From: Streptomyces sp. NBC_01353
GTDB taxonomy: Bacteria > Actinomycetota > Actinomycetes > Streptomycetales > Streptomycetaceae
Length of the DNA stretch: 64,000 nt
NCBI RefSeq assembly: GCF_036237275.1
Contig: NZ_CP108352.1
Coordinates: 2,914,001 to 2,978,000 of the forward strand
Direction of reading: 5' to 3'
Part shown: piece by piece, positions 23,661 through 61,942 of the stretch
Layout: the number at the start of each line of letters is the position of its first letter
Numbering within the stretch: the stretch's first letter is position 1
Position numbers and translations under genes: made by a program
Notes under the pieces: model-generated
Database searches by the model: none
Told to the model about the DNA's origin: nothing
Seen by the model: the letters and a program-made list of their open reading frames with translations, nothing else

Positions 23661-23668
23661 GGCCCAGG

Positions 23669-36845: not shown

Positions 36846-38201
36846 TCACACCCCTTCCGCGGGGGCCGGCTCGTCCGCCATCGCGGCAGTGAGGGTGCTG
36901 CCGTCGGAGGGGTCGATGAGCAGGAACGATCCGGTGCGGCGGAAGTCCGCGTAACCGTCCAGGGCGAGCGGTTCCGCGGTGCGGACGACGATCCGGCCGA
37001 TGTCGTTGACGCCGAGGGTGTCGGGGCCCGGGCGTTCGGAGAGGTCCTGGAGATCGAGCCGCGAGGTGATGTCCACGACCACGGCCCGTACGGTGCGGGT
37101 GGTGTGCCGCAGCAGGACCTGCCGGCCGGCGTGGAGGGGCTGCTCGCCGAGATGGCAGACGGTGGCGGTCAGCAGCCGGACGGCGCGGGGCGCGGCGTCG
37201 GCCGGGGCCAGCAGATCGCCCCGGGCGATGTCGAGGTCGTCGGTCAGCCGGACCGTCACCGACTGGGGCGCCCAGGCGGTGTCGGTGACGGTGCCGTCCA
37301 GGGTGTCGATGGCCGCGATCGTGCTGACCGCGCCGGACGGCAGGGCGGTGACCCGGTCGCCGACCCGCAGCACTCCGGAGGTGATCTGCCCCGCGTAGCC
37401 GCGGTAGTCGCGGTGTGCGGCGGTGTTCGGCCGGATGACGTACTGCACCGGCAGCCGGGCGGACTCGGTACGGGGATCGGCGCCCACCGGTACCGACTCC
37501 AGGTGCTCGAGCACCGTGGGCCCCGCGTACCAGTCCATACGCTCCGAGGGGCGTACGACGTTGTCGCCGGCCAGGGCCGAGATCGGGATGGCGGTCACCC
37601 GCTCGACGCCGAGCGCGGCGGCGCACTCGGAGAACGCGGCGGCGGTGCGGGCGAACACCTCCTCCGAGCAGCCCACCAGGTCCATCTTGTTGACCACGAG
37701 GGTGACGTGGCGGATACGGAGCAGGGCGGCGACGGCGAGGTGGCGGCGGGTCTGCTCGACGACGCCGTTGCGGGCGTCGACGAGGACGAGGGCGAGGTCG
37801 GCCGTGGAGGCGCCGGTGACCATGTTGCGGGTGTACTGCACATGGCCGGGGGTGTCGGCGAGGATGAACCGGCGGCGGGCGGTGGCAAAGTAGCGGTAGG
37901 CCACGTCGATGGTGATGCCCTGCTCGCGCTCGGCGCGCAGTCCGTCGGTCAGCAGCGCCAGGTCGGGCGCCTCCTGGCCGCGCTTGAGGGACGCCGCCTC
38001 GACGGCCTCCAGCTGGTCGGCCAGAACCGACTTGGAGTCGTGCAGGAGACGTCCCACCAGGGTGGACTTGCCGTCGTCGACGGAGCCGGCGGTGGCGAAC
38101 CGCAGGGTGTCCACCGCCCTGTGCGGGTCGGCGGTGCGCTGGTCGGCGGCGTGCGGACCGGTCGGGTACGGCGCGGTGTTCGGAGCTTCGGTGAGGTTCA
38201 C
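36846..38201 (-). CDS. cysN: Sulfate adenylyltransferase subunit 1 (GTPase), CysN
   Basis: A 451-residue protein from GTG 38199-38201, two bases after the cysD stop. The EF-Tu-like GTPase has ATAGSVDDGKST (about 37-48), DTPGH and NKMD motifs, followed by beta-barrel domains II and III. With CysD it activates sulfate with ATP to adenosine 5'-phosphosulfate, using GTP hydrolysis. The order cysC-cysD-cysN downstream of a sulfotransferase, without any sulfite or APS reductase gene, points to making PAPS for sulfation and not to cysteine synthesis. It ends the long leftward operon that begins with the encapsulin gene. Confidence 0.95.
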   Translation of the reverse strand: MNLTEAPNTAPYPTGPHAADQRTADPHRAVDTLRFATAGSVDDGKSTLVGRLLHDSKSVLADQLEAVEAASLKRGQEAPDLALLTDGLRAEREQGITIDVAYRYFATARRRFILADTPGHVQYTRNMVTGASTADLALVLVDARNGVVEQTRRHLAVAALLRIRHVTLVVNKMDLVGCSEEVFARTAAAFSECAAALGVERVTAIPISALAGDNVVRPSERMDWYAGPTVLEHLESVPVGADPRTESARLPVQYVIRPNTAAHRDYRGYAGQITSGVLRVGDRVTALPSGAVSTIAAIDTLDGTVTDTAWAPQSVTVRLTDDLDIARGDLLAPADAAPRAVRLLTATVCHLGEQPLHAGRQVLLRHTTRTVRAVVVDITSRLDLQDLSERPGPDTLGVNDIGRIVVRTAEPLALDGYADFRRTGSFLLIDPSDGSTLTAAMADEPAPAEGV

Positions 38202-38203
38202 GG

Positions 38204-39175
38204 CTAGAAGTACCCTTCGCGTTTGCGGTCTTCCATGGCGGCTTCCGAGAGCTTGTCGTCGGCGCGGGTCGCGCCGCGTTCGGTGAGCCGGGAGGCGGCG
38301 ATCTCGGCGATCACGGACTCGACGGTGGCGGCGGTGGACTCCACGGCTCCGGTGCAGGACATGTCGCCGACCGTGCGGTAGCGGACGAGCCGGGTCTCCA
38401 GGTGCTCGTCGGCGCGCGGGCCGCCCCAGTCGCCGGGGGCCAGCCACATGCCGTCGCGGGCGAAGACCTCGCGGTGGTGGGCGTAGTAGATCTCCGGCAG
38501 GGCGATGTTCTCGCGCTGGATGTACTGCCAGACGTCGAGCTCGGTCCAGTTGGAGAGCGGGAAGACCCGGACGTGCTCGCCGGGGGCGTGGCGGCCGTTG
38601 TACAGCGACCACAGCTCGGGGCGCTGACGGCGGGGGTCCCAGGCGCCGAACTCGTCGCGCAGCGAGAACACCCGCTCCTTGGCGCGGGCCTTCTCCTCGT
38701 CGCGCCGGCCGCCGCCGAACACCGCGTCGTAGCGGCCGGTGGCGATGGCGTCGAGCAGCGGGACGGTCTGCAGCGGGTTACGGGTGCCGTCCGGACGCTC
38801 GCGCAGCCGGCCGTCGTCGATGAAGTCCTGCACCCGGGCGACGTGCAGCCGGAGGCCGTGCTCGGCAACGACGCGGTCGCGGTAGTCGAGGACCTCGGGG
38901 AAGTTGTGCCCGGTGTCGACGTGCAGCAGGGAGAAGGGAAGCGGCGCGGGCGCGAAGGCCTTGAGCGCCAGGTGGAGCATGACGATGGAGTCCTTGCCGC
39001 CGGAGAAGAGGATCACCGGCCGCTCGAACTCGCCCGCCACCTCCCGGAAGATGTGGACGGCCTCGGACTCGACGGCGTCGAGGTGGGAGAGCCCGAAGGC
39101 GTCACCGGTCCGGACGGGGGGCAGCGACGGGGCGGCGAACGTGGTGACGGCCGAGGTGACGGTCGTGGCGGTCAT
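38204..39175 (-). CDS. cysD: Sulfate adenylyltransferase subunit 2, CysD
   Basis: A 323-residue protein. The PP-loop SGGKDS lies at 58-63, and family motifs include HVDTGHNFPEVLDYRD, GGGRRDEEKARAKERVFSLR and SNWTELDVWQYI. It is the catalytic ATP sulfurylase subunit, working with CysN. The ATG overlaps the cysC stop (ATGA). A 20-residue Ala/Thr/Pro-rich N-terminal extension precedes the normal start, which may be a cluster-specific feature. Its product APS is the substrate for the CysC kinase encoded next to it. Confidence 0.95.
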   Translation of the reverse strand: MTATTVTSAVTTFAAPSLPPVRTGDAFGLSHLDAVESEAVHIFREVAGEFERPVILFSGGKDSIVMLHLALKAFAPAPLPFSLLHVDTGHNFPEVLDYRDRVVAEHGLRLHVARVQDFIDDGRLRERPDGTRNPLQTVPLLDAIATGRYDAVFGGGRRDEEKARAKERVFSLRDEFGAWDPRRQRPELWSLYNGRHAPGEHVRVFPLSNWTELDVWQYIQRENIALPEIYYAHHREVFARDGMWLAPGDWGGPRADEHLETRLVRYRTVGDMSCTGAVESTAATVESVIAEIAASRLTERGATRADDKLSEAAMEDRKREGYF

Positions 39176-39813
39176 GCGGCACTCCTCTCCTTCTCGTCCG
39201 CGCCGGCGAGGAGTCCCCGCCGGGTGAGCAGATCGAGCAGCTCCTGCGCGGACTCGGCGACGCTCTGGGTGTGCGAGGCGATCCTCAGGTCGGGTGCGGC
39301 CGGCTCCTCGTACGGGTCGTCCACCCCGGTCAGGCCGCTGATCTCGCCCGCCGCCTGCCGGGCGTACAGGCCCTTGACGTCCCGTCGGGCGCAGACCGAC
39401 AGCGGGGCGGCGACATGGACCTCCAGGAAGTCGGTGCCGCTCTCCCGATGCCAGGAGCGCACCGTGTCGCGGGACTCGGCGTAGGGGGCGATCACCGGGA
39501 CCAGGACCGTCACACCGTTGCGGGCGAGCACCTGGGCGACCCGGCCGATGCGTTCGACGTTGTCGATCCGGTCGGCGCGGGAGAAGCCGAGGCCGGCCGA
39601 GAACGTCCGGCGCAGCTCGTCGCCGTCGAGGACCTCCACGCGTCTGCCGTGCGAGCGCAGCAGTCCTGCGGTGGCGTACGCGAGGGTGGTCTTGCCCGCG
39701 CTCGGCAGACCGGTCAGCCAGAGGGTCGAGCCGGGGTAGCAGGTGCAGTGGACGACGGGGGCCGCGCGGTCGTGCCCGGGGGCGGCCGTCAGGACGGTCA
39801 CAGCAAGCTCCAT
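39172..39813 (-). CDS. cysC: Adenylylsulfate kinase, CysC
   Basis: A 213-residue protein from ATG 39811-39813, chosen over an upstream start because MELAVTVL is closer to the fold and the start then lies inside the end of the preceding gene. The P-loop is GLPSAGKTT (35-43), with VLDGDELR, GFSRADRIDNVERIG and KGLYARQAAGEISGLTGVDD typical of APS kinases. It phosphorylates APS to PAPS, the sulfate donor for the sulfotransferase encoded upstream in the same operon. It overlaps both the LysZ-LysK gene and cysD, so the genes are translated together. Confidence 0.95.
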   Translation of the reverse strand: MELAVTVLTAAPGHDRAAPVVHCTCYPGSTLWLTGLPSAGKTTLAYATAGLLRSHGRRVEVLDGDELRRTFSAGLGFSRADRIDNVERIGRVAQVLARNGVTVLVPVIAPYAESRDTVRSWHRESGTDFLEVHVAAPLSVCARRDVKGLYARQAAGEISGLTGVDDPYEEPAAPDLRIASHTQSVAESAQELLDLLTRRGLLAGADEKERSAA

Positions 39814-41654
39814 TCTCGGACCGCGGCGGCCAGCAGGCACTGGGCCCGCCGGAACTCGTCCGCGTGCAGGTGTTCGTCGGGGGTGTGGTCGAGCTTCGCG
39901 TCACCGGGGCCGTAGGCGACCATGGGGACGCCGTGCCAGGTGGTGGCGAGCGTGTTCATGTCGCTGCTGCCCTTCTTCATCAGGTACCGAGGGGTGATCC
40001 CCTCCGCCCTGAAGGCCCGCTGGAAGGCCTTGACCAGCGGACTGGTGCGTCCGGTGGTCACTCCGGGGGTGGCTCGCAGGATGTCGATCCGCACGGGGGC
40101 GGTCGCCAGCGCGCACAGCGCGTCCACGGTCGCCTCCACGTCGAGACCCGGCGGTACGCGGACGTCCACGACGGCTTCGCCGACCTGGGCGTCGCCCTGG
40201 TTGAGGGCTCGTACGCCGAGCACGGCGGTCAGTGCGTCCGGGTGCAGTCCGGCCACCGTCCCCGGGACCTTGGCGAGCACCTCGACCATCCGGTCGCCCG
40301 CGGTACGGACGCCCTCGCCGGCCGTGTGGCCGGTGGGCTCCTCCACGCCGTACCGGACCTTGACCAGGCCGTAGTAGCCGAGGGTGAGGGCCTCCGCGCC
40401 GCTGGGCTCGCCCACGATCACCGCGTCGGCCGGGTAGGCGTCGCGGACGTGGAAGGCGCCGGCACCGGTGATCTCCTCCTCGACGGCGCCGATCACCCGC
40501 ACCTCGACGCCCTCGGGCGGGTCGAAGTCGGCGAGGGTCTGGAGGTAGGTCACCAGACTGCCCTTGGCGTCCACGGAGCCGCGCCCGGACAGCACCTCAC
40601 CGTCCCAGCGGACGGGCCAGCGGTGCGGGACGGTGTCCAGGTGACCGAGCATCAGCAGCCGCCGGGAGCCGGACCCCTTGGTGGCCACCAGGTTGTTCGC
40701 GGCGTCGATCTCCGCCTTGATGCCGCGCTCCGCGCACCATTCGGCGAGGAACTCGGCGATCTCCCGCTCGTCGCGCGAGACGGAGGACAGCTCCACCGTG
40801 CGGGCGAGCAGATCGAGGTCGGGGGCGGGGGCGGGGGCCCGCCAGAACCAGGTGGCGCCTGCGGCGGACAGCGTGTGCGGCCCGGTGATGGCGGTGTCGG
40901 AGGTGCCCTTGAGGGCGATCTCGGCGGCCCTGACCTTCTGGCGCATCCGGCCCTTGGCGTAGCGCCGGCCCTCGCCCTCGGTGAGGTGGCGCAGGCTGCT
41001 GGTGGGGTCGGCCGGGTCGGTGAGCAGCCCGGCGGTGCCGGTGACCAGCCGCAGATGGTCGGCGTCCAGAGCCAGCGCGGCCTCGGCGGCGAGCACGTCG
41101 GCGTCCACGTTGAGCGCCGTACCGCCGTCGGCGTCGGCGACCGGCGGGGAGAGGCAGACGACGTCGAAGGTGGCGAGCAGGCCGTTGAGCCTGGGGACGT
41201 CCACGGAGCTGACGGTGCCCGCGCGGTGGTCGCGGATCACCCGGGTCCTGCCGTCCTCCTGCACGCGCAGCGGGCCGTTGACGGTGGCCTTGACGAGCGC
41301 GCCGGTGCGGGCGACCGCCGCGAAGACGGAGAGTCCGCGCCGGGTCAGCTCCTCCTCCACCAGGGGCAGGGTGACCTCCTCGTACGCGGCGACGATGTGC
41401 CGCATCTCCTCCGGCGGGCAGTAGCGGATCTCGTCGCCGTTGCGGGAGAGCAGGGTGCGGATCTCGCGTCCGGTGCGCCGGTAGTGCTCCCGGATGCCGG
41501 CCGCTCCCCCGGCGATGACGAGCAGGCGCGCGCCGCGCCGGTTGAGTTCGAGCAGTTCGTCGAAGACCTGACTGTGGAGCAGAGTGGCGCTGCCCAGCTT
41601 GACCACGTAGAGCGCGGCCTCGCGTGAGCTGGCGACTTCCCCGAGGGCTGGCAT
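39798..41654 (-). CDS. Fused [LysW]-amino acid kinase (LysZ-like) and [LysW]-amino acid hydrolase (LysK-like)
   Basis: A 618-residue two-domain protein. Residues about 14-275 are an amino-acid kinase: VVKLGSATL, VIAGGAAGIREHYRRTG, LNVDADVLAAEAALALDADH, then AKGRMRQKVRAAEIAL. They phosphorylate the carboxylate of a carrier-bound amino acid, as LysZ does. Residues about 285-618 are an M20 metallopeptidase (GHLDTVPHRW, GSVDAKGSLVTYL, GAVEEEITGAGAF, LMKKGSSDMNT), as in LysK, which releases the finished amino acid from LysW. Fusing the second and last steps is a marker of carrier-protein secondary metabolism. It starts the part of the leftward operon that continues with cysC, cysD and cysN. Confidence 0.9.
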   Translation of the reverse strand: MPALGEVASSREAALYVVKLGSATLLHSQVFDELLELNRRGARLLVIAGGAAGIREHYRRTGREIRTLLSRNGDEIRYCPPEEMRHIVAAYEEVTLPLVEEELTRRGLSVFAAVARTGALVKATVNGPLRVQEDGRTRVIRDHRAGTVSSVDVPRLNGLLATFDVVCLSPPVADADGGTALNVDADVLAAEAALALDADHLRLVTGTAGLLTDPADPTSSLRHLTEGEGRRYAKGRMRQKVRAAEIALKGTSDTAITGPHTLSAAGATWFWRAPAPAPDLDLLARTVELSSVSRDEREIAEFLAEWCAERGIKAEIDAANNLVATKGSGSRRLLMLGHLDTVPHRWPVRWDGEVLSGRGSVDAKGSLVTYLQTLADFDPPEGVEVRVIGAVEEEITGAGAFHVRDAYPADAVIVGEPSGAEALTLGYYGLVKVRYGVEEPTGHTAGEGVRTAGDRMVEVLAKVPGTVAGLHPDALTAVLGVRALNQGDAQVGEAVVDVRVPPGLDVEATVDALCALATAPVRIDILRATPGVTTGRTSPLVKAFQRAFRAEGITPRYLMKKGSSDMNTLATTWHGVPMVAYGPGDAKLDHTPDEHLHADEFRRAQCLLAAAVREWSLL

Positions 41655-41861: not shown

Positions 41862-42632
41862 TCAGCCGATGCCGCGGGTGTTGCCGCCGTCCGCGACCAG
41901 CACGGCGCCGGTGACGAACGCGGCCTGTTCGCCGGCGAGGAAGGCGACCAGGGCGCCCAGGTCCTCGGCCCGTCCGATCCGGCCGAGCGGGATCCCGGCG
42001 GCGACCTCGGCCAGGCGCTCCTCGACCTCGTCGCCGTACTGCACGTCGAGGATCGGGGTGCGGTGGAAGCCGGGCGCCAGGACGTTCACCGTCACCCCGG
42101 CCGGGCCGAAGGCGTGCACCAGGCCCTTGGCGAACCCGAGGACGCCGAGCCGGGCCACCGAGGACAGTCCGCTGCCCGGATGGGGCTGGCGCACCGACTC
42201 GGAGGTGATCATGACGATCCGGCCCCAGCCGGCGTGCCGCAGATAGGGCGCGGCGGCCAGCGAGATCGACACATGGGGCAGCAGGTTGGCGTTGACGGCC
42301 TCCCGGTACTCGGCGACCTCGAAGTCCTCCACGGGGCCGAAGGGCACCCCGCCGGAGTTGGTGACGACCACGTGCAGCGCGCCGAACTCCGTGGCGGTGC
42401 GGCGCACCCAGTCGGCGGCGGCGTCCTCGTCGCTCAGATCGACGACCGTGCTCAGCACCCGGCCCGTACCGCAGGCGTCCACCTCCTTGTGGGCGCGGGC
42501 CAGCCGCTCGGGGTCACGGCCGCAGATCGACACGTCGGCGCCCTCGGTGGCCAGGACGCGGGCCACGGCGAGGCCGATTCCGCTGCTGGACGCGGCGACC
42601 AGGGCGGAGCGTCCGGAGAGGCCCAGGTTCAC
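41862..42632 (-). CDS. Short-chain dehydrogenase/reductase-like protein with altered catalytic site
   Basis: A 256-residue protein from GTG 42630-42632, overlapping the sulfotransferase stop. The Rossmann start SALVAASSSGIGLAVARVLA and the C-terminal APGFHRTPI and GAVLVADGG motifs are normal. The catalytic Ser of ITSES is present, but where Tyr and Lys of YxxxK are expected (13 and 17 residues later) the protein has Ser and Arg (LSSVARLGVLGFAK). A related SDR subgroup with an SxxxR-like segment exists and its chemistry is not well defined. It could reduce a ketone with a different acid, or serve a non-redox role. The gap 41655-41861 downstream shows no gene. Confidence 0.85.
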   Translation of the reverse strand: MNLGLSGRSALVAASSSGIGLAVARVLATEGADVSICGRDPERLARAHKEVDACGTGRVLSTVVDLSDEDAAADWVRRTATEFGALHVVVTNSGGVPFGPVEDFEVAEYREAVNANLLPHVSISLAAAPYLRHAGWGRIVMITSESVRQPHPGSGLSSVARLGVLGFAKGLVHAFGPAGVTVNVLAPGFHRTPILDVQYGDEVEERLAEVAAGIPLGRIGRAEDLGALVAFLAGEQAAFVTGAVLVADGGNTRGIG

Positions 42633-43723
42633 GAGGCCTCACCTCGCGAGGGCGGTCCTGAGGTCCGCGAGGCCGGCCGGCCGGCCGGTCCGGAGGTCCT
42701 GCCGGAGCCCTGGCCGGTGCCCGCGCCGGAGCCCGAGCCCGCGCCCTTGCCCGAGCCGACGCCCACGCCCTTGCCCGAGCTCGTCGTCCGGGAGGGGCGG
42801 ACGGGGGCGAGCGGGTAGCCGTAGCGGGTCAGCAGGGGTGCGGCCGCCGCCGTGGCCGCCGCGATGTCGGCGCCGGGCAGTGCGGTGCGCCAGCGCTCGT
42901 CGGGGCGGATCTGGGTGACGCCGCGCCGCAGCCGGTCCGGATTGCCGGTGACGGTGTGGTTGGCGCCGAGCGGGATCCGGCCGGATGCGTCCACCGGGGA
43001 TTCGTCGTCGAGGCCCGCGAAGCGCAGGACGCGGGTCGTCACCTCGCGGGGGTCGCGAGCCAGGTCCTCGTGGCGGATGCGCAGGTAGCGCTCGCCCGCC
43101 GTCCGGCCGACCAGTTCGGAGGCGAGGTTGAAGGCGGTCCAGTAGCCGCTGCTGCGGGCCGGGGACATGGGGTCGATGTAGTCCTTGGCGCTGCGGTAGG
43201 ACAGCGCGGTGGCCCGCGGGTCCCGCACGATGTGCAGCACCCGTACATCCAGGTCGGTGCGGCCCAGGAGCGCGGCCGCCTCCGCCGGGTACTTGGATCC
43301 GTCCACGATCAGGCGGTCGCCGCCGAGGGCGGCCACCTGCCGGTAGACGGAGGCCGAGTGGTCGAGGAGCTCCGTCATGCCGGGGGCGGTCGGGCGCTCG
43401 CCGCGGGCCTCCGCGAGCCGGGCGGGGGTGTGCCGGGTACGCAGCAGCGCCTGCTGGAGCGTGGCCATCCGGTGCGCGGTGTGATCGGCGGTCCCCTCGG
43501 GCAGGGCCGCGAGGATGCCGGCCCAGAGCGGGCACTCGCGCAGCGGACTGCCGCAGCCGCAGCTGGAGTTGGTACCGGCGCCGAGGACGCCGTTGCGCCA
43601 GAGGTAGTACAGCTCTCCGACGTGCCGGACGCCGGGGATCTCGTTGAGGACGTTGCCGAGCAGGGTGCTGCCGCTGCGCATCCATCCGGTGATGTAGAGG
43701 ACGCGCGGGGAGGGGCCTGTCAT
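42629..43723 (-). CDS. PAPS-dependent sulfotransferase with a disordered Gly/Ser-rich C-terminal tail
   Basis: A 364-residue protein. The 5'-phosphosulfate-binding loop is WMRSGSTLLGN (about 14-24). A dimer-type 3'-phosphate site lies in LHIVRDPRATALSYRSAKDY, and RYLRIRHEDLARDP follows in normal sulfotransferase order. CysC, CysD and CysN encoded in the same operon can supply PAPS. After about residue 312 the protein continues for 50 residues as SSGKGVGVGSGKGAGSGSG and similar, ending SGPPSRGEAS. This low-complexity tail is not part of the enzyme fold. It is encoded directly downstream of the encapsulin shell gene, so the tail may be a cargo-loading segment. In known aziridine routes, sulfation of a hydroxyl makes the leaving group. 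Confidence 0.85.
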   Translation of the reverse strand: MTGPSPRVLYITGWMRSGSTLLGNVLNEIPGVRHVGELYYLWRNGVLGAGTNSSCGCGSPLRECPLWAGILAALPEGTADHTAHRMATLQQALLRTRHTPARLAEARGERPTAPGMTELLDHSASVYRQVAALGGDRLIVDGSKYPAEAAALLGRTDLDVRVLHIVRDPRATALSYRSAKDYIDPMSPARSSGYWTAFNLASELVGRTAGERYLRIRHEDLARDPREVTTRVLRFAGLDDESPVDASGRIPLGANHTVTGNPDRLRRGVTQIRPDERWRTALPGADIAAATAAAAPLLTRYGYPLAPVRPSRTTSSGKGVGVGSGKGAGSGSGAGTGQGSGRTSGPAGRPASRTSGPPSRGEAS

Positions 43724-43843
43724 GGTGGTGGGGGTCCCTTCGTGGTGCCACCGACACGGTCGGACACGGATCGCGCACGGGCCCGATGTGGTCGGTCCGC
43801 CTCGGACGCGGTCGTCGCGGGTCGGTCGCGGGGTCGGTCCGCG

Positions 43844-44737
43844 TCAGTCGCGGGTCAGCAGCAGGAAGTGCTGCGGCAGGTGGACGGCGAGACCGATCCG
43901 GCTGGTCGCCTCGATGGCGTCGGAGCCGTCCGGACCCGCGCCGCGGCGCAGCGCCAGCGAGGCCACACCCGGGACGAGCAGGGTGACGGCGGCCCGGAAG
44001 TCGCCGAGGAGGACCTGGCCGCGCGGGATCATGCGGGTGCGCGAGACGGTGATGCCGGCCGCGCCCAGCTGGCCGAGGACGCCGGCCCGTACCAACTCCC
44101 AGTACGTGAAGGGGTGGACGACGATCCCGTCGCAGGAGCCGCCCGTCTCCTCGACCTCGGCGGCGGCCTCGGTGATGGCGGCGTACACGTCCTCGCCGAG
44201 CGTGCCGCGCCGGATCTCCGGAAGGTTCAGCAGGCCGCTGATCGCGTTGTCGGCGCTGCCGTGCAGCAGCGTCTCGTTCTCGACGACGGAGAGCCGGACC
44301 AGCACGCGGTAGTCGACGAAGGACGCGAGCAGCGCCGGCTGGTCGAGCAGCCCGGCGGGCAGCGGCACGCGCACCGTCAGATCGGTGAGCTCGGCCTGCT
44401 CGAGGCGCGGGGCGAAGGCGCCCTCGGGGGTGGCCTGGTACGAGGTGCCGGCGGCGGCCAGTCGGGCGGCCGGCGGCTCGTGCACGAAGGTGACCGGCGC
44501 GTCGCCGACCGACGCCGTCTTCAGCAGGTGCCGCACGGCGTACCGCGGGCGGGTCGCGAACAGCGGGAAGACGGCCGGGAGATGGGCGCGGAAGGGCACC
44601 TCGTGGTCCTGGTCCTGGCCGGCGGCGCGTACCGACCAGGCGAACTCCTCGCCCGGGCTGCGGGTGGCGAGGGCCGGGTCGGCGAGCTGTATCTGGACTC
44701 CCTGCTGCACTGCGGAATCGGCGGTGGCTGCCAGCAT
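43844..44737 (-). CDS. Family 3 encapsulin-type shell protein (HK97 fold)
   Basis: A 297-residue protein from ATG 44735-44737, preceded by GAGGAGA. The pattern is that of HK97-type capsid folds. An E-loop region (about 60-130) is followed by the spine helix, NETLLHGSADNAISGLLNLP, then AAITEAAAEVEETGGSCDGI, VVHPFTYWELVR, GQVLLGDFRAAVTLLVPGVA and a final RIGLAVHLPQHFLLL. No portal, terminase, protease or tail gene is present, so it is not a phage capsid gene. Shell proteins of this kind (family 3, natural-product encapsulins) are known in actinobacterial biosynthetic clusters. Its operon continues with the sulfotransferase, SDR, LysZ-LysK and PAPS-making genes, so one or more of these enzymes are candidate cargo. 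Confidence 0.85.
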   Translation of the reverse strand: MLAATADSAVQQGVQIQLADPALATRSPGEEFAWSVRAAGQDQDHEVPFRAHLPAVFPLFATRPRYAVRHLLKTASVGDAPVTFVHEPPAARLAAAGTSYQATPEGAFAPRLEQAELTDLTVRVPLPAGLLDQPALLASFVDYRVLVRLSVVENETLLHGSADNAISGLLNLPEIRRGTLGEDVYAAITEAAAEVEETGGSCDGIVVHPFTYWELVRAGVLGQLGAAGITVSRTRMIPRGQVLLGDFRAAVTLLVPGVASLALRRGAGPDGSDAIEATSRIGLAVHLPQHFLLLTRD

Positions 44738-44912: not shown

Positions 44913-45007
44913 CCGGTCCGTGACCGCATCCATGGCGCCGTCGAAACCGCCGACCCTAGGCTGAGCGCAGACTTCACGGAACGTCCTTCGACGATGTGGG
45001 TGGGAGA

Positions 45008-46021
45008 ATGCATCACGACTTGCAGATAAACAGGCTGAGGACTCTGGTGGCCGTCGTCGAACTCGGCGGTTTCCGGAGGGCGGCGGAGTCACTGCACATC
45101 ACCCAGCCCGCCGTCAGCCAGCAGATACGCCAGCTGAGCGGTCTCATCCGGAGCCCGGTGTTCGCCTCCACGGGACGCAATCTGCGGCTCAGCCCGCGGG
45201 GCGAGGAGCTCCTGAGGTACGCCCGCCGGATGGTGGCCCTCAACGACGAGGCCGTCGACCGCTTCATCCCGCAGGCCGGCCAGCTCATGCTCTCGATCGG
45301 GGTGTCGAGCCAGCTCGCGGAGGTGCTGCCCGAGTTCCTCCGGCTGCTGAACCGGGGGATGCCCCAGGCCCAGCTGAGCGTGCGGACCGGGGCGAGCGAG
45401 GAACTGGCGGCCCAGCTGGCCGGCGGTCAGCTCGACGCGGCGCTGCTGTTCCAGGCCGATCCGCCCGCCTCCGGCACGGACTGCCGGGAGTTGGGCAGGA
45501 TGCGCATGGCCTGGTTCGGGCGGCCGGCCCACGGAGAGCGGGGCGCGCTGCCCCTGGCGCTCTTCCCCGAGCCCTGCACGCTTCGGGGCCGGGTCCGCGA
45601 GGTCCTCGACGCCTCGGGCATCGAGTGGCGGGTGGCGTACGAGAGCAGCGAGCTGATCGGACTGAGGTCGGCCGCCAAGGCGGGTCTCGGGATGACCTGC
45701 CTGGTCGCCAACGGGGACGAGCTGTGGGGCCTGACCCCGTCCGTACGCCCCGGGCTTCCGGAGCCGCCCGAGCCGGTGCCGGTGACGATGGCGCTGGCTC
45801 CGGGAGGCGTACCGGAGGGCTTCACCGCCATCGCGGAGAAGGCGTTCCGCCAGGCCCTCCGGGGCTATCCGCTCACCTCGGAAGCGCCCTCCGACAAGCC
45901 CGCGGACGCCACCGCCGGCCCGACGTCCGCACCGGCCACCGCCACGGCCCCGACCTCGGCCCCGACCTCGGACTCCTCCGGCTCCGCCGGCGCTCCCGTG
46001 CTCGCGACCGCCACGGCCTGA
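45008..46021 (+). CDS. LysR-type transcriptional regulator
   Basis: A 337-residue protein. The N-terminal winged helix reads INRLRTLVAVVELGGFRRAA, then LHITQPAVSQQIRQL. A periplasmic-binding-type effector domain follows (LSIGVSSQLAEVLPEFLRLL, then GGQLDAALLFQAD). The last 45 residues are a Thr/Ala/Ser/Pro-rich unstructured tail, which is unusual for LysR proteins. The ATG at 45008 is preferred to the GTG at 44996 because GGGTGGGAG precedes it. It lies between the two divergent arms of the carrier-protein cluster and is the most likely pathway-specific regulator. The co-inducer is unknown. Confidence 0.9.
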   Translation: MHHDLQINRLRTLVAVVELGGFRRAAESLHITQPAVSQQIRQLSGLIRSPVFASTGRNLRLSPRGEELLRYARRMVALNDEAVDRFIPQAGQLMLSIGVSSQLAEVLPEFLRLLNRGMPQAQLSVRTGASEELAAQLAGGQLDAALLFQADPPASGTDCRELGRMRMAWFGRPAHGERGALPLALFPEPCTLRGRVREVLDASGIEWRVAYESSELIGLRSAAKAGLGMTCLVANGDELWGLTPSVRPGLPEPPEPVPVTMALAPGGVPEGFTAIAEKAFRQALRGYPLTSEAPSDKPADATAGPTSAPATATAPTSAPTSDSSGSAGAPVLATATA

Positions 46022-46157: not shown

Positions 46158-46340
46158 ATGCAGGAAACCCTTGTCGCCCCCGAGTGCCCCGAGTGCGACG
46201 CCGAGGTGTCGCTGGGAACGGATGCCCGGGTGAGCGAAATAGTCGAGTGCCCGGAATGCCGGCTGGAGCTGGAGATCGAGTCCGTCGAGCCGCCGCGACT
46301 TCTGCTGGCTCCCGAGGTCGAGGAGGACTGGGGCGAGTAA
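46158..46340 (+). CDS. lysW: LysW-like amino-group carrier protein
   Basis: A 60-residue acidic protein with GAGG before its ATG. It has the zinc-binding pairs CPEC (10-13) and CPEC (about 32-35) and ends in the signature EDWGE, whose final Glu is the attachment point for the substrate amino group. LysW-type carriers hold the amino acid by an isopeptide link, protecting the amine while the side chain is modified. Lysine in actinobacteria is made by the diaminopimelate route, so this copy should serve secondary metabolism. The ligase (lysX) and reductase (lysY) genes follow immediately. Confidence 0.95.
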   Translation: MQETLVAPECPECDAEVSLGTDARVSEIVECPECRLELEIESVEPPRLLLAPEVEEDWGE

Positions 46341-46385: not shown

Positions 46386-47249
46386 ATGAGCTCTGCGGCA
46401 GCGCGACTCGGTGTCCTCGCCTCCCGGGTCCGGTTCGAGGAGAAGAACATCCTGACCGCGCTGGAGAGGCGCGGCGTCGCCTGTGAACAGATCGACCCCC
46501 GCGCTCTGTCGGTCCGGGCCGGAACGCCCTGGGACGGCCCGCAGATCGTGCTCAACCGCGAAGTGGGTCACTACCGTGCCCTGTACGCGGCTTCCGCACT
46601 GGAGTCGGCGGGCGTGACGGTGCTCAACAGTGCCGCCGCCACGGCCGTCTGCGGGGACAAGTGGCAGACCTCGGCGGCCCTGGTCGCCCGAGGCCTGCCG
46701 ACCCCGGAGACCACGCTCGCCCTGACCCCGGACGCGGCCCTGAAGGCCCTGGAGGAACTGGGCTATCCCGCGGTGATCAAGCCCCTGGTGGGGTCCTGGG
46801 GGCGGCTCGTCACCCGGGTCACCGACCGGGCGATGGCCGAGGCGGTGCTCGAGCACCTCGCGGCCCTGCCCTCCCCGCAGTCGCACATCGTCTACGTCCA
46901 GCGCGAGGTCGCCAAGGCGGACCGGGACATCCGGGTCCTGGTCGTCGGCGGCCGGGCGGTCGGGGCCACCTACCGCCGAAGCGAGGACTGGCGCACCAAC
47001 GTGGCCCGCGGCGCGGTCAGCGAGCGCTGCCCGCTCGAGGCGGACCTCACCGAGCTCGCGGTCGCGGCGGCGGACACCGTCGGCGCCTGTGTGGCCGGGG
47101 TGGACCTCCTGGAGGAGCCGGGCGGCCGGCTCACCGTCCTGGAGGTCAACGACCGGGTCGAGTTCCGCGGCCTGCAGTCGACCTACGGATCCGACCTCGA
47201 TGTGGCGGACACCATCGCCGCCCTCCTGACAGCAAAGGCAGAGTCATGA
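46386..47249 (+). CDS. lysX: LysX-like ATP-grasp ligase loading the carrier protein
   Basis: A 287-residue RimK/LysX-family ATP-grasp enzyme with GAAGGAG upstream. Features are KWQTSAALVARGLPTPETTL, AVIKPLVGSWGRLV (ATP-binding Lys), IVYVQREVAKADRDIRVLVV and the signature LEVNDRVEFRGLQSTYG. In LysX/ArgX enzymes the EVN...EF segment helps select aminoadipate or glutamate; here the residues after EF differ from those in common LysX, so I do not predict the substrate firmly. In the known secondary pathways it is glutamate. It joins the substrate amino group to the LysW C-terminal Glu. Its stop overlaps the lysY start. Confidence 0.9.
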   Translation: MSSAAARLGVLASRVRFEEKNILTALERRGVACEQIDPRALSVRAGTPWDGPQIVLNREVGHYRALYAASALESAGVTVLNSAAATAVCGDKWQTSAALVARGLPTPETTLALTPDAALKALEELGYPAVIKPLVGSWGRLVTRVTDRAMAEAVLEHLAALPSPQSHIVYVQREVAKADRDIRVLVVGGRAVGATYRRSEDWRTNVARGAVSERCPLEADLTELAVAAADTVGACVAGVDLLEEPGGRLTVLEVNDRVEFRGLQSTYGSDLDVADTIAALLTAKAES

Positions 47250-48271
47250 TCCGCGCGGCAGTGCTGGGAGCGGCCGGCTACATCGGCGGGGAGCTGCTGC
47301 GGCTGCTCGTCAACCACCCCCAGGTCGACCTGGCGGCCGCCACCTCGCGCACCCTCCAGGGACGTCAGATCGACGGCGTCCACCCCAACCTGCGCGGCCG
47401 CACCCGGCTGACGTTCTCGTCCGAGGACCAACTCCCCCGCGTCGACGTGCTGTTCCTGGCGACCCCGCACCGCGAGACGATGCAGCGGATGCCGGAGTTC
47501 CTCACCAAGGCGAATGTCGTCATCGACCTGTCGGGCGACTTCCGGCTCGGCGACCCCGAGGTGTACGAGGACTACTACGGCACCCCGCACTCGGCCCCCG
47601 AGCTCATCGGCACCTTCGTCCAGGGGCTTCCGGAGCTCCACCGCGAGCGGCTGCGCACCGCGGACCGGATCTCCGTGCCCGGCTGCATGGCCGCCGCCGG
47701 CATCCTCTCCCTCGTCCCGCTGGCCGAGGCCGGACTCATCACGGGCGATGTCACGGTCGACGCCAGGACGGGCTCCAGCGGCTCGGGCGCCAAGGCGGGC
47801 GCGGAGAACCTGCACGCCGAACGCAGCGGCGCCCTCCGGGTGTTCGCCCCGACCCGGCACCGGCACGAGGCGGAGATCGCCCAGGCCACCGGGCACACCG
47901 TCCGGATGTCGGCGACCGGTGTCGAAGCGGTCCGCGGCGTCCAGCTGCTGAGCCGGGCGACCCTCGCCGACGGTGTCGACGAGCGGGCCATCCGGTCCGC
48001 CTACCGGACCCGCTACGCCGACGAGCCGTTCATGCGGATCGTCGCCGCCCGGCGCGGGATGCACCGCTTCCCCGACGCCAAGATCCTCTCCGGTTCCAAC
48101 TTCTGCGACGTCGGGTTCGCCCTGGACCGGGGCGCGGCGACCGTCACCGTGATCGCGGCGCTGGACAACCTCGTCAAGGGCGGCGCGGGCAACGCGGTGC
48201 AGTGCATGAACGTGCGCTTCGGGGAGCCCGAGACGCGCGGCCTCGAGTTCACCGGCCTGCACCCCAACTGA
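47246..48271 (+). CDS. lysY: LysY/ArgC-like [LysW]-amino acyl-phosphate reductase
   Basis: A 341-residue protein. The NADPH fold starts with AAVLGAAGYIGGELLRLL; the catalytic Cys lies in SVPGCMAAAGILSLVPLAEA, and a conserved His-containing segment is FAPTRHRHEAEIAQ. It reduces the carrier-bound acyl phosphate made by the LysZ-like domain to the semialdehyde. The ATG overlaps the lysX stop (ATGA). Classification as LysY, not ArgC, rests on the neighbours. The 117-base spacer to the next gene is Pro-codon-like and carries a short CACCCATCAGCCGCCTCA tandem repeat. Confidence 0.9.
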   Translation: MIRAAVLGAAGYIGGELLRLLVNHPQVDLAAATSRTLQGRQIDGVHPNLRGRTRLTFSSEDQLPRVDVLFLATPHRETMQRMPEFLTKANVVIDLSGDFRLGDPEVYEDYYGTPHSAPELIGTFVQGLPELHRERLRTADRISVPGCMAAAGILSLVPLAEAGLITGDVTVDARTGSSGSGAKAGAENLHAERSGALRVFAPTRHRHEAEIAQATGHTVRMSATGVEAVRGVQLLSRATLADGVDERAIRSAYRTRYADEPFMRIVAARRGMHRFPDAKILSGSNFCDVGFALDRGAATVTVIAALDNLVKGGAGNAVQCMNVRFGEPETRGLEFTGLHPN

Positions 48272-48388: not shown

Positions 48389-49318
48389 ATGAGCAGCCCG
48401 CCTCTGCTGCGGGGCGCCCCCGCCCGCACCGATCTCACCGGCACCGGCCTCGACGAGCGCCGCCCGGACGCACACGGCCCCGACGCGGCTGAGCTCGCCG
48501 ACATCACCGGCCGGATCAGGGAGCACATCGTCGCCATGTGCGCCGGCCCCGAGGGCGGCCACCTGGGCGGGTCGATGTCGCTCGTCGAGATCCTGTCCGT
48601 CCTGTACTTCCGGGTCATGCGGCACGACCCCCGCTTCCCCGGCCTGCCCGAGCGCGACGTCCTGCTGCTGAGCAAGGGACACGGCGGTATCGCCCTGTTC
48701 GCGACGCTCTGCGAGGCCGGCTACTTCCCGGCCGAGGACCTCGACGAGTACGCCAGGCCCGGCAGCCACCTGATGGCCCATCCGCACCCCGAGATCGCCG
48801 GCGTGGAGATCGCCTCCGGCTCGCTCGGCCACGGTCTCGCCCTCGGCGTCGGCTACGCACTGGCCAACCGCCTCGACGGCTCGGCCCGCCGCTGCTTCGT
48901 GGTGATGGGCGACGGCGAGCTCCAGGAGGGCTCGGTCTGGGAGGCCGCCTCGGTCGCCTCCGCACACCGGCTGAACAGCCTCACCGCGATCGTCGACCGC
49001 AACGGTCTGCAGATCACCGGCGGCACCGAGTCCGTCAACTCCCTGGAGCCGCTGGCCGATCGCTGGCGGGCCTTCGGCTGGCGCGTCGTCGAGGCCGACG
49101 GCCACGACGCGGAGGCGCTAACAAGCGCGTTGACGCTGCCCGCGGACCTGGACAGGCCCACCGTGATCATCGCCCACACCGTCAAGGGCAAGGGCGTGCC
49201 CTTCATCGAGGGCCAGGCCAAGAGCCACTACGCCCGGCTGAGCGGCCGGCAGCACCAGCGGGCGCTCAACGCGGTCCGTGCCTCGGCGGGCACCCCGGCG
49301 GGCGGTGACCGTCGATGA
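48389..49318 (+). CDS. Transketolase N-terminal subunit
   Basis: A 309-residue protein carrying the thiamine-diphosphate-binding half of transketolase: GGHLGGSMSLVEIL, LLLSKGHGGIALFATL, GSLGHGLALGVGYALA and the TPP motif GDGELQEGSVWEAA...N (about 169-182). The first 35 residues are a non-conserved extension. The second half is encoded by the next gene, overlapping by ATGA. In carrier-protein pathways such as that of vazabitide, a split transketolase transfers a two-carbon ketol unit onto the LysW-bound semialdehyde, lengthening the chain. That is the likely role here, since no pentose-phosphate genes are nearby. Confidence 0.95.
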   Translation: MSSPPLLRGAPARTDLTGTGLDERRPDAHGPDAAELADITGRIREHIVAMCAGPEGGHLGGSMSLVEILSVLYFRVMRHDPRFPGLPERDVLLLSKGHGGIALFATLCEAGYFPAEDLDEYARPGSHLMAHPHPEIAGVEIASGSLGHGLALGVGYALANRLDGSARRCFVVMGDGELQEGSVWEAASVASAHRLNSLTAIVDRNGLQITGGTESVNSLEPLADRWRAFGWRVVEADGHDAEALTSALTLPADLDRPTVIIAHTVKGKGVPFIEGQAKSHYARLSGRQHQRALNAVRASAGTPAGGDRR

Positions 49319-50283
49319 CCACGGCTCCCGCCCCCGCTCCGGCCCGCGCCGCCCGTGAGGTCTACCGCGACACGGTCGCCGAGCTGCTCCCCGGCGAGCC
49401 GCGGCTGGTGGTCCTGGACAGCGACACCGGACTGTTCGGCGGGGTGGACTTCGGTTCCGCCGCCGACCGCTACCTCAATCTCGGCATCGCCGAGCACACC
49501 CTGATGGGCACGGCCGCCGGCCTCGCCCGGGAGGGCCGTATCCCGCTGGTCAACACCATGGCGGCGTTCGCCTCCTCCCGCGCGGTGGAGGCCGTGAAGA
49601 TCGACATCGCGATGGGCAACCTTCCGGTGCTGATCGCGGCCACCCACTCCGGGGTGTCGGCCGGGCATCTCGGCCCGACCCACCACGCCCTGGAGGACCT
49701 CGCGGTGATGCGGGCCCTGCCCCACATGACCGTGGTGGTCCCGGGCGACGCCGCCGGGACCGAGGACCTGCTGCGCCAGGCGCTGACGCTGGGCGGCCCG
49801 GTCTACTTCCGGCTCGGCCGGGGCGCCACCCCCGATCTGCCCGCCGGTCCGCCGGTGCGGCTCGGCAAGGCCCAGCAGCTGCGGCACGGTACGGACATCA
49901 CCCTGGCGGCCTGCGGGCCCTACCCGGTGCTCGCCGCCCTGGAGGCGGCCGACCTGCTGGAGTCCGAGGGCATCACCGCGAACGTGCTGCACCTGCACAC
50001 CGTCAAACCGCTGGACACCCCTGCGCTGCTGAGCTCGCTCGGTGTGCGCGACACGGTGATCACCGTGGAGGAGCACTGGAGCTCCGGCGGCTTCGGGTCG
50101 GCGGTCGCCGAGGCGCTCAGCGCCGTACGCCCGGTGCGGGTGCATCGGATGGCGCTGCCGGACGAGTTCGTCCCCGTCGCCGGAAGCCAGCGCTATCTGC
50201 TCGAACGGGGCGGGGTCAGCGCGCGGGCGATCGCCGAGCGCGCCCGTGCCTCGCTCGATTCACGCCGTGGAGGCATCCGTTGA
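49315..50283 (+). CDS. Transketolase C-terminal subunit
   Basis: A 322-residue protein with the pyrimidine-binding and C-terminal domains of transketolase: FFSRVVDLGIAEH-like block as YLNLGIAEHTLMGTAAGLAR, the catalytic Glu within GIAEH, ATHSGVSAGHLGPTHHALED, and HTVKPLDTPALLSSLGVRDT, VITVEEHWSSGGFG. It forms the active enzyme with the preceding subunit. The start ATG overlaps that gene's stop. Its own stop overlaps the TTG start of the following ligase gene. The role in C2 extension of the carrier-bound aldehyde is inferred from known amino-group-carrier clusters. Confidence 0.95.
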   Translation: MTTAPAPAPARAAREVYRDTVAELLPGEPRLVVLDSDTGLFGGVDFGSAADRYLNLGIAEHTLMGTAAGLAREGRIPLVNTMAAFASSRAVEAVKIDIAMGNLPVLIAATHSGVSAGHLGPTHHALEDLAVMRALPHMTVVVPGDAAGTEDLLRQALTLGGPVYFRLGRGATPDLPAGPPVRLGKAQQLRHGTDITLAACGPYPVLAALEAADLLESEGITANVLHLHTVKPLDTPALLSSLGVRDTVITVEEHWSSGGFGSAVAEALSAVRPVRVHRMALPDEFVPVAGSQRYLLERGGVSARAIAERARASLDSRRGGIR

Positions 50284-51923
50284 CCGCCGCCGACACCTAC
50301 CGCGCCGCCGGCTGGTGGCGGGACGAGACCGTCCTGCACGATCTGCGCCACTGGGCCCGTGAGCAGCCGGACAAGCCGGCTCTGGTCTGTTACCAGGGCG
50401 CCGATCAGGAGACCTTGACCTATGCCGAGCTGGCCCGGCGGGTCGACCGGCTCGCGGTCGGTCTGCTCCGTCTCGGGGTCCGCCGCGGCGATGTGGTGAC
50501 CCTGCAGATACCCAACTCCTGGGAGCTGGTGGCGCTCTGTCTTGCCGCCGCCCGGGTCGGCGCGATCGCGGGCCCGGTGGTTCCGGTGATGCGCCGGCGC
50601 GAGGTGGAGTTCATGACCCGGCTCACCGCGAGCCCGGTCTACATCGCCGCCGCCGAGGTGCGCGGATTCTCCTACGGGGAGATGAGCGCCGAGATCGCCG
50701 AGGCCGTGCCGACCCTGCGCCACCGGGTGCTGCTCGGCGCCGGGACCGGTGACATCGAGGCCGGCGCGCTGGACTTCGTACGCGATCTGTACGAGCCCGA
50801 GCCGGACCCGGAGCTGCTCGCCTCCCTCGACACGATCGAGGCCGGGCCGGACGACGCCGCCCAGATCATGTTCACCTCCGGGACCACCGGCGAGCCCAAG
50901 GGTGTGCTGCACAGCCACAACACGCTGTACTCGATGAACAAGGCGCAGGCCGACGTGCTCGGTCTGACCGGGTCCGAGGTCACCGCGATGGGGTCGCCGA
51001 CCACCCATCAGGCCGGGTTCACCTGGAACTTCGTGATGCCGCTGCTGCTCGGCGCGACCGCCGTGCAGGTGGACCGCTGGGATCCGCGGCAGATGCTGCG
51101 GACGCTCCAGGAGCAGCGGGTGACCTTCTTCATGGGCGCCCCGACCTTCCTCTCCGACCTGATCTACGCCCAGCGCGAGACGCCGCACGACCTGTCGGCG
51201 CTGCGCAGCTTCGCCACCGGCAGCGCTCCGATAGCGCCGCTGCTCGTGGAGGACGCGCGCGAGGTGCTCGGCTGCCGGCTGTACGCGCTGTGGGGCATGA
51301 CGGAGAACGGCTGTGTCACCGTCACCCGCCCCGAGCAGCCGCCGCTGCGCGCCGCCGAGAGCGACGGCACCACCGTGCCCGGCATGGAGGTCCGGATCGT
51401 CGACAAGGACGGCGAGCCGGTGGCGCCGGGCACCGCCGGACATCTCCAGGTGCGAGGGTCCGCCCAGTGCCTGGGCTACTTCCGGCGCCAGGACGTGTAC
51501 GACGCCTCGGTGACCGCCGACGGCTGGTTCGACACCGGCGATCTCGCCCGGGCCGACGGCCACGGCGGGATACGGATCACGGGCCGGGTCAAGGACGTGA
51601 TCATGCGGGGCGCCGAGAACATCCCGGTGGTGGAGGTCGAGGCGGCCCTGCTGCGCCACCCCGTGGTCAAGGACGTCGCCGTGGTCGGCTACCCGGACCG
51701 GCGACTCGGCGAGCGCGCCTGCGCGTTCCTCGTGACCACCGGCGCCGCCGCCCCCGACCTGGAGGGCGTGCGCAGCCACCTCGCCGGGCTCGGCATGGCG
51801 CGTACGTACTGGCCCGAGCGGCTGGAACTCGTGTCGGCGCTGCCGAGGACACCCTCCGGAAAGATCCAGAAATTCGCTCTGCGGGACCGGCTCCGGGCCC
51901 AGGAAGGACGCACGGCCTCATGA
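50280..51923 (+). CDS. AMP-forming acyl-CoA/acyl-carrier ligase
   Basis: A 547-residue ANL-superfamily enzyme. Motifs are MFTSGTTGEPKGVLHSHN (ATP loop), YALWGMTENG, GWFDTGDLARADGHGGIRIT and the catalytic Lys in PRTPSGKIQKF. It resembles medium-chain or cyclohexanecarboxylate-type CoA ligases. The TTG at 50280 overlaps the preceding stop. An acyl-CoA dehydrogenase gene follows with an ATGA overlap, so the ligase product is probably an acyl thioester that is then desaturated. Whether this acid is the carrier-derived amino acid or a separate acyl group cannot be decided here. Confidence 0.9.
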   Translation: MTAADTYRAAGWWRDETVLHDLRHWAREQPDKPALVCYQGADQETLTYAELARRVDRLAVGLLRLGVRRGDVVTLQIPNSWELVALCLAAARVGAIAGPVVPVMRRREVEFMTRLTASPVYIAAAEVRGFSYGEMSAEIAEAVPTLRHRVLLGAGTGDIEAGALDFVRDLYEPEPDPELLASLDTIEAGPDDAAQIMFTSGTTGEPKGVLHSHNTLYSMNKAQADVLGLTGSEVTAMGSPTTHQAGFTWNFVMPLLLGATAVQVDRWDPRQMLRTLQEQRVTFFMGAPTFLSDLIYAQRETPHDLSALRSFATGSAPIAPLLVEDAREVLGCRLYALWGMTENGCVTVTRPEQPPLRAAESDGTTVPGMEVRIVDKDGEPVAPGTAGHLQVRGSAQCLGYFRRQDVYDASVTADGWFDTGDLARADGHGGIRITGRVKDVIMRGAENIPVVEVEAALLRHPVVKDVAVVGYPDRRLGERACAFLVTTGAAAPDLEGVRSHLAGLGMARTYWPERLELVSALPRTPSGKIQKFALRDRLRAQEGRTAS

Positions 51924-60574: not shown

Positions 60575-60782
60575 GGTGTTGATTCCTCTCGGGATGTTCA
60601 CGAAGTCGGAAGAGGGCGGAGCCGGGGAGGGGGCGCCGGGGCGGGCACCGCGCGCGGAGGGGGTGCGCGCGGTGGTGGGGGGCCCGTGGGGTCCCGGCGG
60701 TGGGGCCTTGCGAGGGGGGCTTTGCGCTCGGGGCGTTGCGGTGGCCCTTCGGGTCAGTGCTTGGTTACGCCGCCTGCGTCGC

Positions 60783-61889: not shown

Positions 61890-61942
61890 CTGCGTATGTC
61901 CCTTTCCTGAGGGGAGGTGAAGAGCGTGGTGGGGCGGGAAGG

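Follow-up and report, generated by a model that had tools for sequence, protein, structure and literature searches.

Which enzyme, if any, does the shell of a Family 3 encapsulin serve in an actinobacterial natural product cluster, and is a disordered tail the means by which that enzyme would reach it? The question is raised by a stretch of 64,000 nucleotides from Streptomyces sp. NBC_01353 (hereafter, the window), in which a gene for a shell protein of the HK97 fold is followed on the same strand by a gene for a PAPS-dependent sulfotransferase (ST) with a low-complexity C-terminal tail. Encapsulins of Families 1 and 2 load their cargo through terminal peptides or disordered regions. The original prediction for this locus was that the tail is a candidate loading signal and that the compartment may serve sulfation and aziridine formation.

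The occurrence of Family 3 encapsulins in biosynthetic clusters, which that prediction took as known, was described in a survey by Andreas and Giessen in 2021 (PMC8346489). Its text puts forward disordered termini as possible cargo signals in Families 2 and 3, proposes the containment of aldehyde or ketone intermediates, and presents the role of the Family 3 shell as unknown, with no Family 3 structure solved at that time; no later answer on this role was found in the open-access literature searched. The cluster type itself is therein published, and what is new in the present study is the comparison of the shell, the ST, and its tail across relatives.

Materials and Methods

Genomes were searched in two draws, one of 392 genomes of the same genus and one of 396 genomes, with the ST and shell searches of each taken as the same draw from their matching genome handles, and a part of the first-look candidates was scored per genome (e.g., 5 of 31). 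Because the contig scan was seeded with Streptomyces sequences, the myxobacterial and rhizobial Family 3 classes lie outside the sample. L026, L028, L029, L030, and L031 are identical in contig to L042, L043, L046, L047, and L079, respectively, and were dropped before the non-redundant set of 59 PF13469-type STs was formed, and L035, L036, and L039 duplicate L106, L104, and L107. The 60 shell-linked STs are these 59 and that of L161, in which the shell gene lies approximately 2 kb from the ST gene.

The shell-free STs represent the best-scoring part of the matches (loci for 29 of the 65 non-own genomes with a match), from which L161 was removed and to which G180 was added to reach 29. The 12 genomes with any match to NF041188 at E <= 0.001 include none of the 28 phylum genomes in this set, several of which are incomplete assemblies (the least complete approximately 60%). 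G496, G659, and G809, which have STs together with sub-cut-off matches to the shell model, stand outside the 29. Genes were picked by a composition rule, and the gene content of L086 was read in part.

Results

The shell gene and its setting

The shell protein scored 360 bits against NF041188 (encap_f3; cut-off 180, E 6e-108), a PDB search with a 15-sequence profile reached chains of HK97 gp5 at E 2e-16, and the gene has an ATG start with GAGGAG 5' of it. Genes for a LysW-type carrier protein, the ST, a short-chain dehydrogenase/reductase (SDR), and a YcaO protein surround it (Table 1), and the family-scanned neighbors include no phage structural family, on which basis a prophage remnant was rejected. 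The genes together form a biosynthetic cluster of the Family 3 encapsulin kind, the shell of which is predicted from its gene. That the former capsid protein no longer forms a compartment and is retained as a scaffold, or idles, would agree with the shell match of L040, which is interrupted and contains Ns, and with Family 3 structures having been unsolved as of the 2021 survey; however, the shell is conserved across three clades to approximately 30% identity, with 44 invariant columns among 15 aligned sequences (L040 is absent from these), and we consider this explanation highly improbable.

Table 1. Features of the cluster, with coordinates in the window.
Feature	Coordinates	Strand	Evidence and remarks
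ThcOx-type azoline oxidase	32658..34214	-	PF22767, PF00881
YcaO / TOMM cyclodehydratase fused to leader-binding part	34248..36521	-	TIGR03604, TIGR03882 above cut-off
Probable azole-RiPP precursor, 46 aa	36583..36723	-	contains TCICW; kept beside YcaO
CysN, GTPase subunit	36846..38201	-	PF00009 E 1e-40; GTG at 38201
CysD, sulfate adenylyltransferase small subunit	38204..39175	-	PF01507 E 5e-43; ATG at 39175
CysC, APS kinase	39172..39840	-	PF01583 E 5e-54
Fused LysZ-type kinase and LysK-type M20 hydrolase	39798..41654	-	PF00696 + PF01546
SDR	41862..42632	-	PF13561 E 4e-44; GTG start
PAPS-dependent ST, 364 aa	42629..43723	-	PF13469 E 1e-13, PF00685 E 1e-6, near-invariant residues
ST tail coding sequence, residues 304-364	42632..42814	-	runs into apparent SDR ribosome site
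Family 3 encapsulin shell protein, 297 aa	43844..44737	-	NF041188, HK97 gp5 profile, start, ribosome site
LysR regulator	44996..46021	+	PF03466, PF00126; low-complexity C-terminal tail
LysW-type amino-group carrier protein	46158..46340	+	PF21344; TIGR01206 54.0 vs 53.2; ends EDWGE
LysX-type ligase	46386..47249	+	PF22626, PF08443
LysY-type reductase	47234..48271	+	PF22698, PF01118; start approximate
Split transketolase	48389..50283	+	genes 48389-49318 and 49315-50283; PF00456, PF02779, PF02780
AMP-dependent ligase	50280..51923	+	PF00501 E 2e-82
Putative acyl-CoA dehydrogenase	~51905 to 53065	+	named by eye from translation; kept in relatives

Regarding the rest of the operon, PAPS synthesis and the handling of a carrier-bound substrate had been predicted, and both are borne out: CysC, CysD, and CysN constitute a PAPS supply for an enzyme of the fold family PF13469/PF00685, and LysW, LysX, LysY, and the LysZ-LysK-type fusion, together with the split transketolase, represent the carrier/acetyl glutamate route. 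The fusion protein scored above the cut-off of the TIGR01902 deacetylase subfamily, and its matches to the kinase and hydrolase models specific to [LysW] fell below their cut-offs.

The clusters in PMC8346489 resemble this one in the shell family, the pairing of an ST with an SDR, the LysW carrier, and the peptide natural product context. On the other hand, the main text of that survey does not contain the words YcaO, RiPP, ribosomally, or thiazole, whereas the window's clade has such genes in the same direction, including the 46-aa probable precursor, which had no match in family searches and is conserved next to YcaO in clade A (7 non-redundant loci, the window counted). The survey also describes the chloromyxamide cluster of Myxococcus sp. 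MCy10608, which has a Family 3 shell in common with the window but is myxobacterial and is likened here by description alone; its 6-chloromethyl-5-methoxypipecolate, a substituted pipecolic acid, would have the carbon skeleton expected from the transketolase extension of glutamate semialdehyde.

Co-inheritance of the shell, the ST, and a reductase

The predicted coupling of the shell and ST genes extends well beyond the window. Each of the 83 actinobacterial shell loci examined (the window and all eight duplicates counted here and in the two subtotals) contains an ST gene, which belongs to either of two families. In 64 loci it is of the PF13469 type; in the other 19, which have a divergent shell, a relative of a PF19798 protein is encoded upstream of the shell, as identified by a family scan for one locus and by tblastn matches to that one for the others. 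A reductase is found within the flanks examined in 82 of the 83 loci (57 SDR, 19 aldo-keto, and 6 Rossmann reductases, the last with Pfam matches below the cut-off), and L081 has none by the tests applied within these flanks. The window ST had matches at E <= 1e-10 in 10 of the 392 same-genus genomes, all but one of which also matched the shell.

In a tree of 89 STs, built by a quick method with no bootstrap and with a long-branch warning that includes L161, the 60 shell-linked STs lie on one side (SH-aLRT 97), and the shell state changes once and the tail state four times. A three-residue insertion at residues 48-50 is common to the shell-linked STs, and eight residues after residue 180 that are present in the 29 shell-free STs are missing from them. 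These clade-specific differences may serve substrate choice, and the co-inheritance of the shell and ST also fits a shared pathway without encapsulation.

The tail of the ST

The PF13469 match covers residues 10-240 of the ST, and near-invariant residues were identified over 59 shell-linked STs, the window among them. The common end of the shell-linked STs is Y303, after which the window ST continues for 61 residues, the last approximately 55 of which are rich in G, S, K, P, and T, confirming the tail that had been predicted beyond the fold. Over a 400-kb stretch of this genome, 6 of 241 ORFs, picked by our own composition rule and not by a trained gene finder, have a C-terminal low-complexity tail of at least 50 residues; on this measure the tail of the ST is 63 and that of the LysR regulator of the cluster is 53. 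The tail alone is uncommon, but not remarkable, in this genome.

Tails of at least 25 residues are present in 14 of the 60 shell-linked STs and in 0 of the 29 shell-free STs, a contrast that is confounded by kinship because 13 of the 14 tailed STs fall in two tight groups. Equal frequencies in the two sets, which would have refuted the loading prediction, were not observed, subject to this kinship. The tail is short in the remaining 46 shell-linked STs, among which is L041, a single draft assembly with the shell closest to that of the window (96%) and an ST tail of only 11 residues. By ST sequence, L042, L027, and L043, all tailed, are nearest to the window and L041 is fourth; of the 11 STs in the window's own clade, 10 keep an open frame of 37-84 residues. 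Among 10 STs compared in 13 pairs, nucleotide identity was 0.69-0.84 in the tail versus 0.67-0.87 at third positions of the core, the protein identity of which was 0.80-0.94, so that the tail diverges at approximately the third-codon-position rate, which is near-neutral, and drifts in length and sequence.

Overlap of the ST and SDR genes

In the window, the GTG start of the SDR gene and the ST stop have 4 nt in common, and the SDR gene lies directly 3' of the ST gene in 50 of the 59 non-redundant PF13469-type clusters. In raw counts that ignore kinship, the SDR start is overlapped by 14 of 14 tailed STs, 10 of them by 4 nt, and by 12 of 36 short STs, none by 4 nt. Tail ends of SRGEA or PGE sit on a purine-rich stretch 5' of the SDR start, an apparent ribosome site, and L041 has a similar stretch, CGCGGGGTGA, before its SDR start.

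Three C-terminal sequences, SRGEA, LWPGE, and WTSD, were considered as signals of the ST and rejected. In the DNA of 22 loci, SRGEA and PGE proved to be encoded over the stretch preceding the SDR start; in L053 and L057, WTSD is the SDR start ATGGACCTCGGA read in another frame. L060 has WTSV at the position of WTSD, and the tails of L047 and L049 have endings unlike SRGEA, PGE, and WTSD. Across the relatives compared, neither the ST nor the SDR has a conserved C-terminal motif other than what the SDR ribosome site encodes, and shared tail ends occur only within subgroups. The shell fold is shared with Families 1 and 2, the cargo of which is loaded by terminal peptides or disordered regions (cf. 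PMC8346489); the two enzymes here differ from such cargo in this respect.

Considering these results, a general, conserved loading peptide is rejected: most shell-linked homologues are short, divergence is near-neutral, and the tail tracks the overlap with the SDR gene. The tail is probably not a loading tag for the ST, since the majority of the homologues examined lack it, and this differs from the disordered-end loading suggested in the survey text. In a narrower form, limited to this Streptomyces clade, the low-complexity segment would serve to bring the ST into the shell; its presence in frame in nearly all STs of the clade, the restriction of long tails to shell-linked STs, and the published suggestion are in its favor, but the tail is short beside the closest shell, its conserved end is the ribosome site of the SDR gene, and the LysR regulator has a similar tail. 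We regard even this form as improbable, although some role of the tail specific to the window's lineage may exist, given the open frames in that clade and the occurrence of tails of at least 25 residues only with shells.

The SDR may be thought of as the true cargo, alone or in complex with the ST, with the ST otherwise merely a pathway partner. The presence of a reductase in nearly all shell loci, the position of the SDR gene directly after the ST gene, and the proposed containment of aldehydes or ketones (PMC8346489) are compatible with this; however, SDR C-termini, the only termini compared, extend 0-3 residues past the alignment in 53 proteins, and the reductase family differs between shell clades, and we consider it quite unlikely. 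The residues past the aligned C-terminal end number 0-3 in the acyl-CoA dehydrogenase-like protein, 0-12 in the AMP ligase, 0-20 in CysC, 0-32 in the LysZ-LysK fusion, and 0-24 in the N-terminal transketolase protein, save for one outlier of 363 (L095).

Possible aziridine formation

A compartment for aziridine formation was part of the original prediction, and such an aziridine could be made inside the shell via a sulfate ester, as in azinomycin and vazabitide. As outlined in PMC9570651, these pathways place glutamate on a carrier or acetylate it, reduce it to a semialdehyde, extend it by a transketolase, and sulfate it, and the LysW, transketolase, and ST genes of the window agree with this logic. 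The published route also includes an aminotransferase step, whereas no aminotransferase of PF00202 or PF00155 was found within the window (DegT and class V lie outside this search), and this part of the prediction is weakly supported for that reason.

The cyclizing enzyme of the azinomycin/vazabitide aziridine pathway is of the AziU3/U2 type. No such enzyme was recognized among the operon genes, the scanned ones being of other families and the 46-aa ORF of none. Aminotransferase-like sequence occurs at other shell-linked loci (L082 and L085 by tblastn, L070 by eye). Weak tblastn matches (E 1e-8 to 1e-12) from clade A as well as other loci were left out of the counts: the match inspected, that of L026, has the MFS gene on its opposite strand. 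Aziridine formation is unlikely in our estimation; for a fused aziridine made by the ring nitrogen, a second amine would be unneeded and the reading would stay viable.

Discussion

We lean towards the explanation that the ST and the reductase are associated with the shell through their folds, and that gene coupling gave rise to the tail as a by-product. The shell, which is inherited together with a dedicated ST and, in 82 of the 83 loci, a reductase (here the SDR), would provide the site in or on which the SDR and ST act on a LysW-built seven-carbon amino acid. Glutamate would be converted to its semialdehyde and extended by two carbons by the transketolase, the SDR would set the alcohol, and the ST would sulfate it using PAPS from CysC, CysD, and CysN, with the sulfate later either leaving or staying as an end group. 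If the shell recognizes the ST at all, it would do so through the folded ST or its partner and not through the tail, which may have originated as the ST frame ran through the spacer and stopped at the SDR start, an arrangement that would keep the translation of the two genes coupled.

As a tentative possibility, actinobacterial Family 3 shells may be general reductase-ST compartments with a fold-docked ST (e.g., by the insertion near residue 49), comprising three shell clades with differing reductases and two ST families, and the window's clade may have been joined to an azole-RiPP pathway to give a hybrid carrier-protein/ribosomal-peptide product. Loading by a disordered tail is no longer the leading idea for this ST, and the recurrence of a reductase and an ST beside divergent shell clades is a pointer to a possible purpose of the shell.

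Shell Gene and Its Conserved Partners

The shell protein scored 360 bits against the NCBIfam Family 3 encapsulin model (cut-off 180), its sole Pfam match was a sub-threshold one to Linocin_M18, and a PDB search with a profile of 15 shell sequences recovered HK97 gp5 (E 2e-16). A spacer of 120 bases leads to the sulfotransferase (ST) gene, 3' of which lies a short-chain dehydrogenase/reductase (SDR) gene that begins with GTG and shares its first four bases with the end of the ST gene. The minus strand continues with a LysZ-LysK-type fusion, CysC, CysD, and CysN, while LysR, LysW, LysX, LysY, a split transketolase, and an AMP ligase run in the opposite direction from the shell. The coordinates and gene calls of the original prediction were confirmed. 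ST residues 55-64 carry a CGCG...C pattern, near-invariant in shell-linked and shell-free STs alike, which is perhaps a metal or disulfide site.

Features of the window and its encapsulin locus
Feature	Position	Strand	Remark
SUKH-3 immunity-type protein	22728-23720	minus	
ThcOx oxidase	32658-34214	minus	
TOMM-type YcaO	34248-36521	minus	
46-aa ORF with invariant TCICW	36583-36723	minus	ahead of YcaO
PAPS-type sulfotransferase, 364 residues	42629-43723	minus	PF13469
Family 3 encapsulin shell protein, 297 residues	43844-44737	minus	NCBIfam model
LysR regulator	44996-46021	plus	
AMP-binding plus carrier, ketosynthase III, and glutamine amidotransferase genes	58214-63978	minus	probably a separate biosynthetic cluster
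Acyl-CoA dehydrogenase	opposite-direction gene set		identity read by eye

A shell match was found in 16 of 392 same-genus genomes (own genome included), and nine of the ten with the ST type of the window also carried the shell. We compared 83 loci, comprising 67 from a scan of named genomes, 15 same-genus neighborhoods, and the window, with eight duplicates. A PF13469-type ST was present in 64 (duplicates counted), and all 19 remaining loci, with shells approximately 30% identical, had another-family sulfotransferase upstream of the shell; the one scanned was PF19798, and the other 18 gave tblastn matches to it of at least 73%. The predicted coupling of shell and ST extends beyond what a single locus could reveal. 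A reductase accompanied the pair in 82 loci (SDR in 57, a Rossmann protein below the Pfam cut-off in six, and an aldo-keto reductase in 19); none was found in locus L081 by the tests applied to all 83.

The core of this finding is a published proposal because PMC8346489 surveys biosynthetic clusters with 132 Family 3 shells, reports conserved ST-SDR pairs in many of these clusters as well as LysW-type carriers, and regards tailoring enzymes with extended or possibly disordered ends as candidate cargo. No later test of this proposal was found in the open-access literature searched.

Neighboring Genes

The 46-aa ORF, YcaO, and ThcOx probably constitute an azole-RiPP unit oriented like the encapsulin operon. 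All seven non-redundant loci with a detected YcaO (the window and relatives L027, L041, L045, L046, L047, and L048) also contained the TCICW ORF. In L104, the region 15205-18004, approximately 5 kb from a clade C shell, contains an ORF that by eye resembles a lasso-type precursor, and after it an asparagine-synthetase-like protein and then a PqqD-like ORF.

Product Chemistry

The gene set of the window matches the opening reported for azinomycin and vazabitide in PMC9570651, namely, carrier-bound glutamate semialdehyde and a transketolase; in those pathways, an aminotransferase step precedes sulfation and aziridine closure. At the clade A transketolase position, clade B locus L031 has a transaldolase-family gene (PF00923, 6436-8100) upstream of the shell. 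No PF00202 or PF00155 aminotransferase was present in the window, the search being confined to these two families; the 14 PF00202 and 28 PF00155 matches of the genome all lie beyond it. Aminotransferase-like sequences were found in other shell-linked loci (L082, L085, and, by eye, L070). With these two families absent from the window, the gene content examined does not support the aziridine formation originally predicted. If no second amine is installed, ring closure by the alpha-amine after release could produce a six-membered ring, and the resulting pipecolate would resemble the one that PMC8346489 reports for the Family 3 cluster of chloromyxamide. A fused aziridine formed by the ring nitrogen is possible.

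Distribution and Origin of the ST Tail

The tail had been proposed as a shell-loading signal. Counted from the shared RYxY end, tails of at least 25 residues occurred in 14 of 59 non-redundant shell-linked STs (14 of 60 with L161) and in none of 29 shell-free STs. Long tails were confined to shell-linked STs, but the other 46 had short ones, including L041, with 11 residues in one draft assembly. The shell of L041 is the closest (96%) among the 67 named loci, but its ST is less similar to that of the window than are the STs of three tailed relatives. The 14 comprise 10 of 11 STs of the window's Streptomyces clade, L057, and three Actinomadura. In a quick tree of 89 STs with SH-aLRT support only, the 60 shell-linked STs grouped together (SH-aLRT 97), and the shell state changed once and the tail state four times. 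The placement of L161 in this tree is unsure because some long branches, its own included, meet there. A 3-residue insertion is likewise common to the shell-linked STs, and 8 residues present in the shell-free STs are missing from them. Loading by the tail is, on these sequence comparisons, unlikely as a general mechanism. The frame is nevertheless open in 10 of the 11 STs of the window's clade, and none of the shell-free STs examined has a comparable tail; both points count against the frame-extension explanation given below, and the tail may have a local role.

Among 13 pairs of 10 tailed STs, core protein identity was 80-94%, and tail residue identity was 45-70% over the aligned part and 32-59% over the longer tail; nucleotide identity in the tail (0.69-0.84) was similar to that at core third positions (0.67-0.87). 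By the low-complexity measure applied to the ST, tails of at least 50 residues ended six of 241 picked ORFs in 400 kb of the genome, and the LysR regulator of this cluster has a C-terminal tail of 53 residues.

All 14 tailed STs overlapped the SDR start, ten by four bases; of the 36 short-tailed STs that have an SDR gene next to them, 12 overlapped it, none by four bases (raw counts, kinship ignored). The last tail residues shared by a subgroup coincide with a purine-rich stretch ahead of the SDR start, and L041 has a similar stretch with the ST stop inside it. The ST frame may have been extended through the spacer between ST and SDR as far as the SDR start, and the open tail frame would be maintained because it would couple the translation of ST and SDR.
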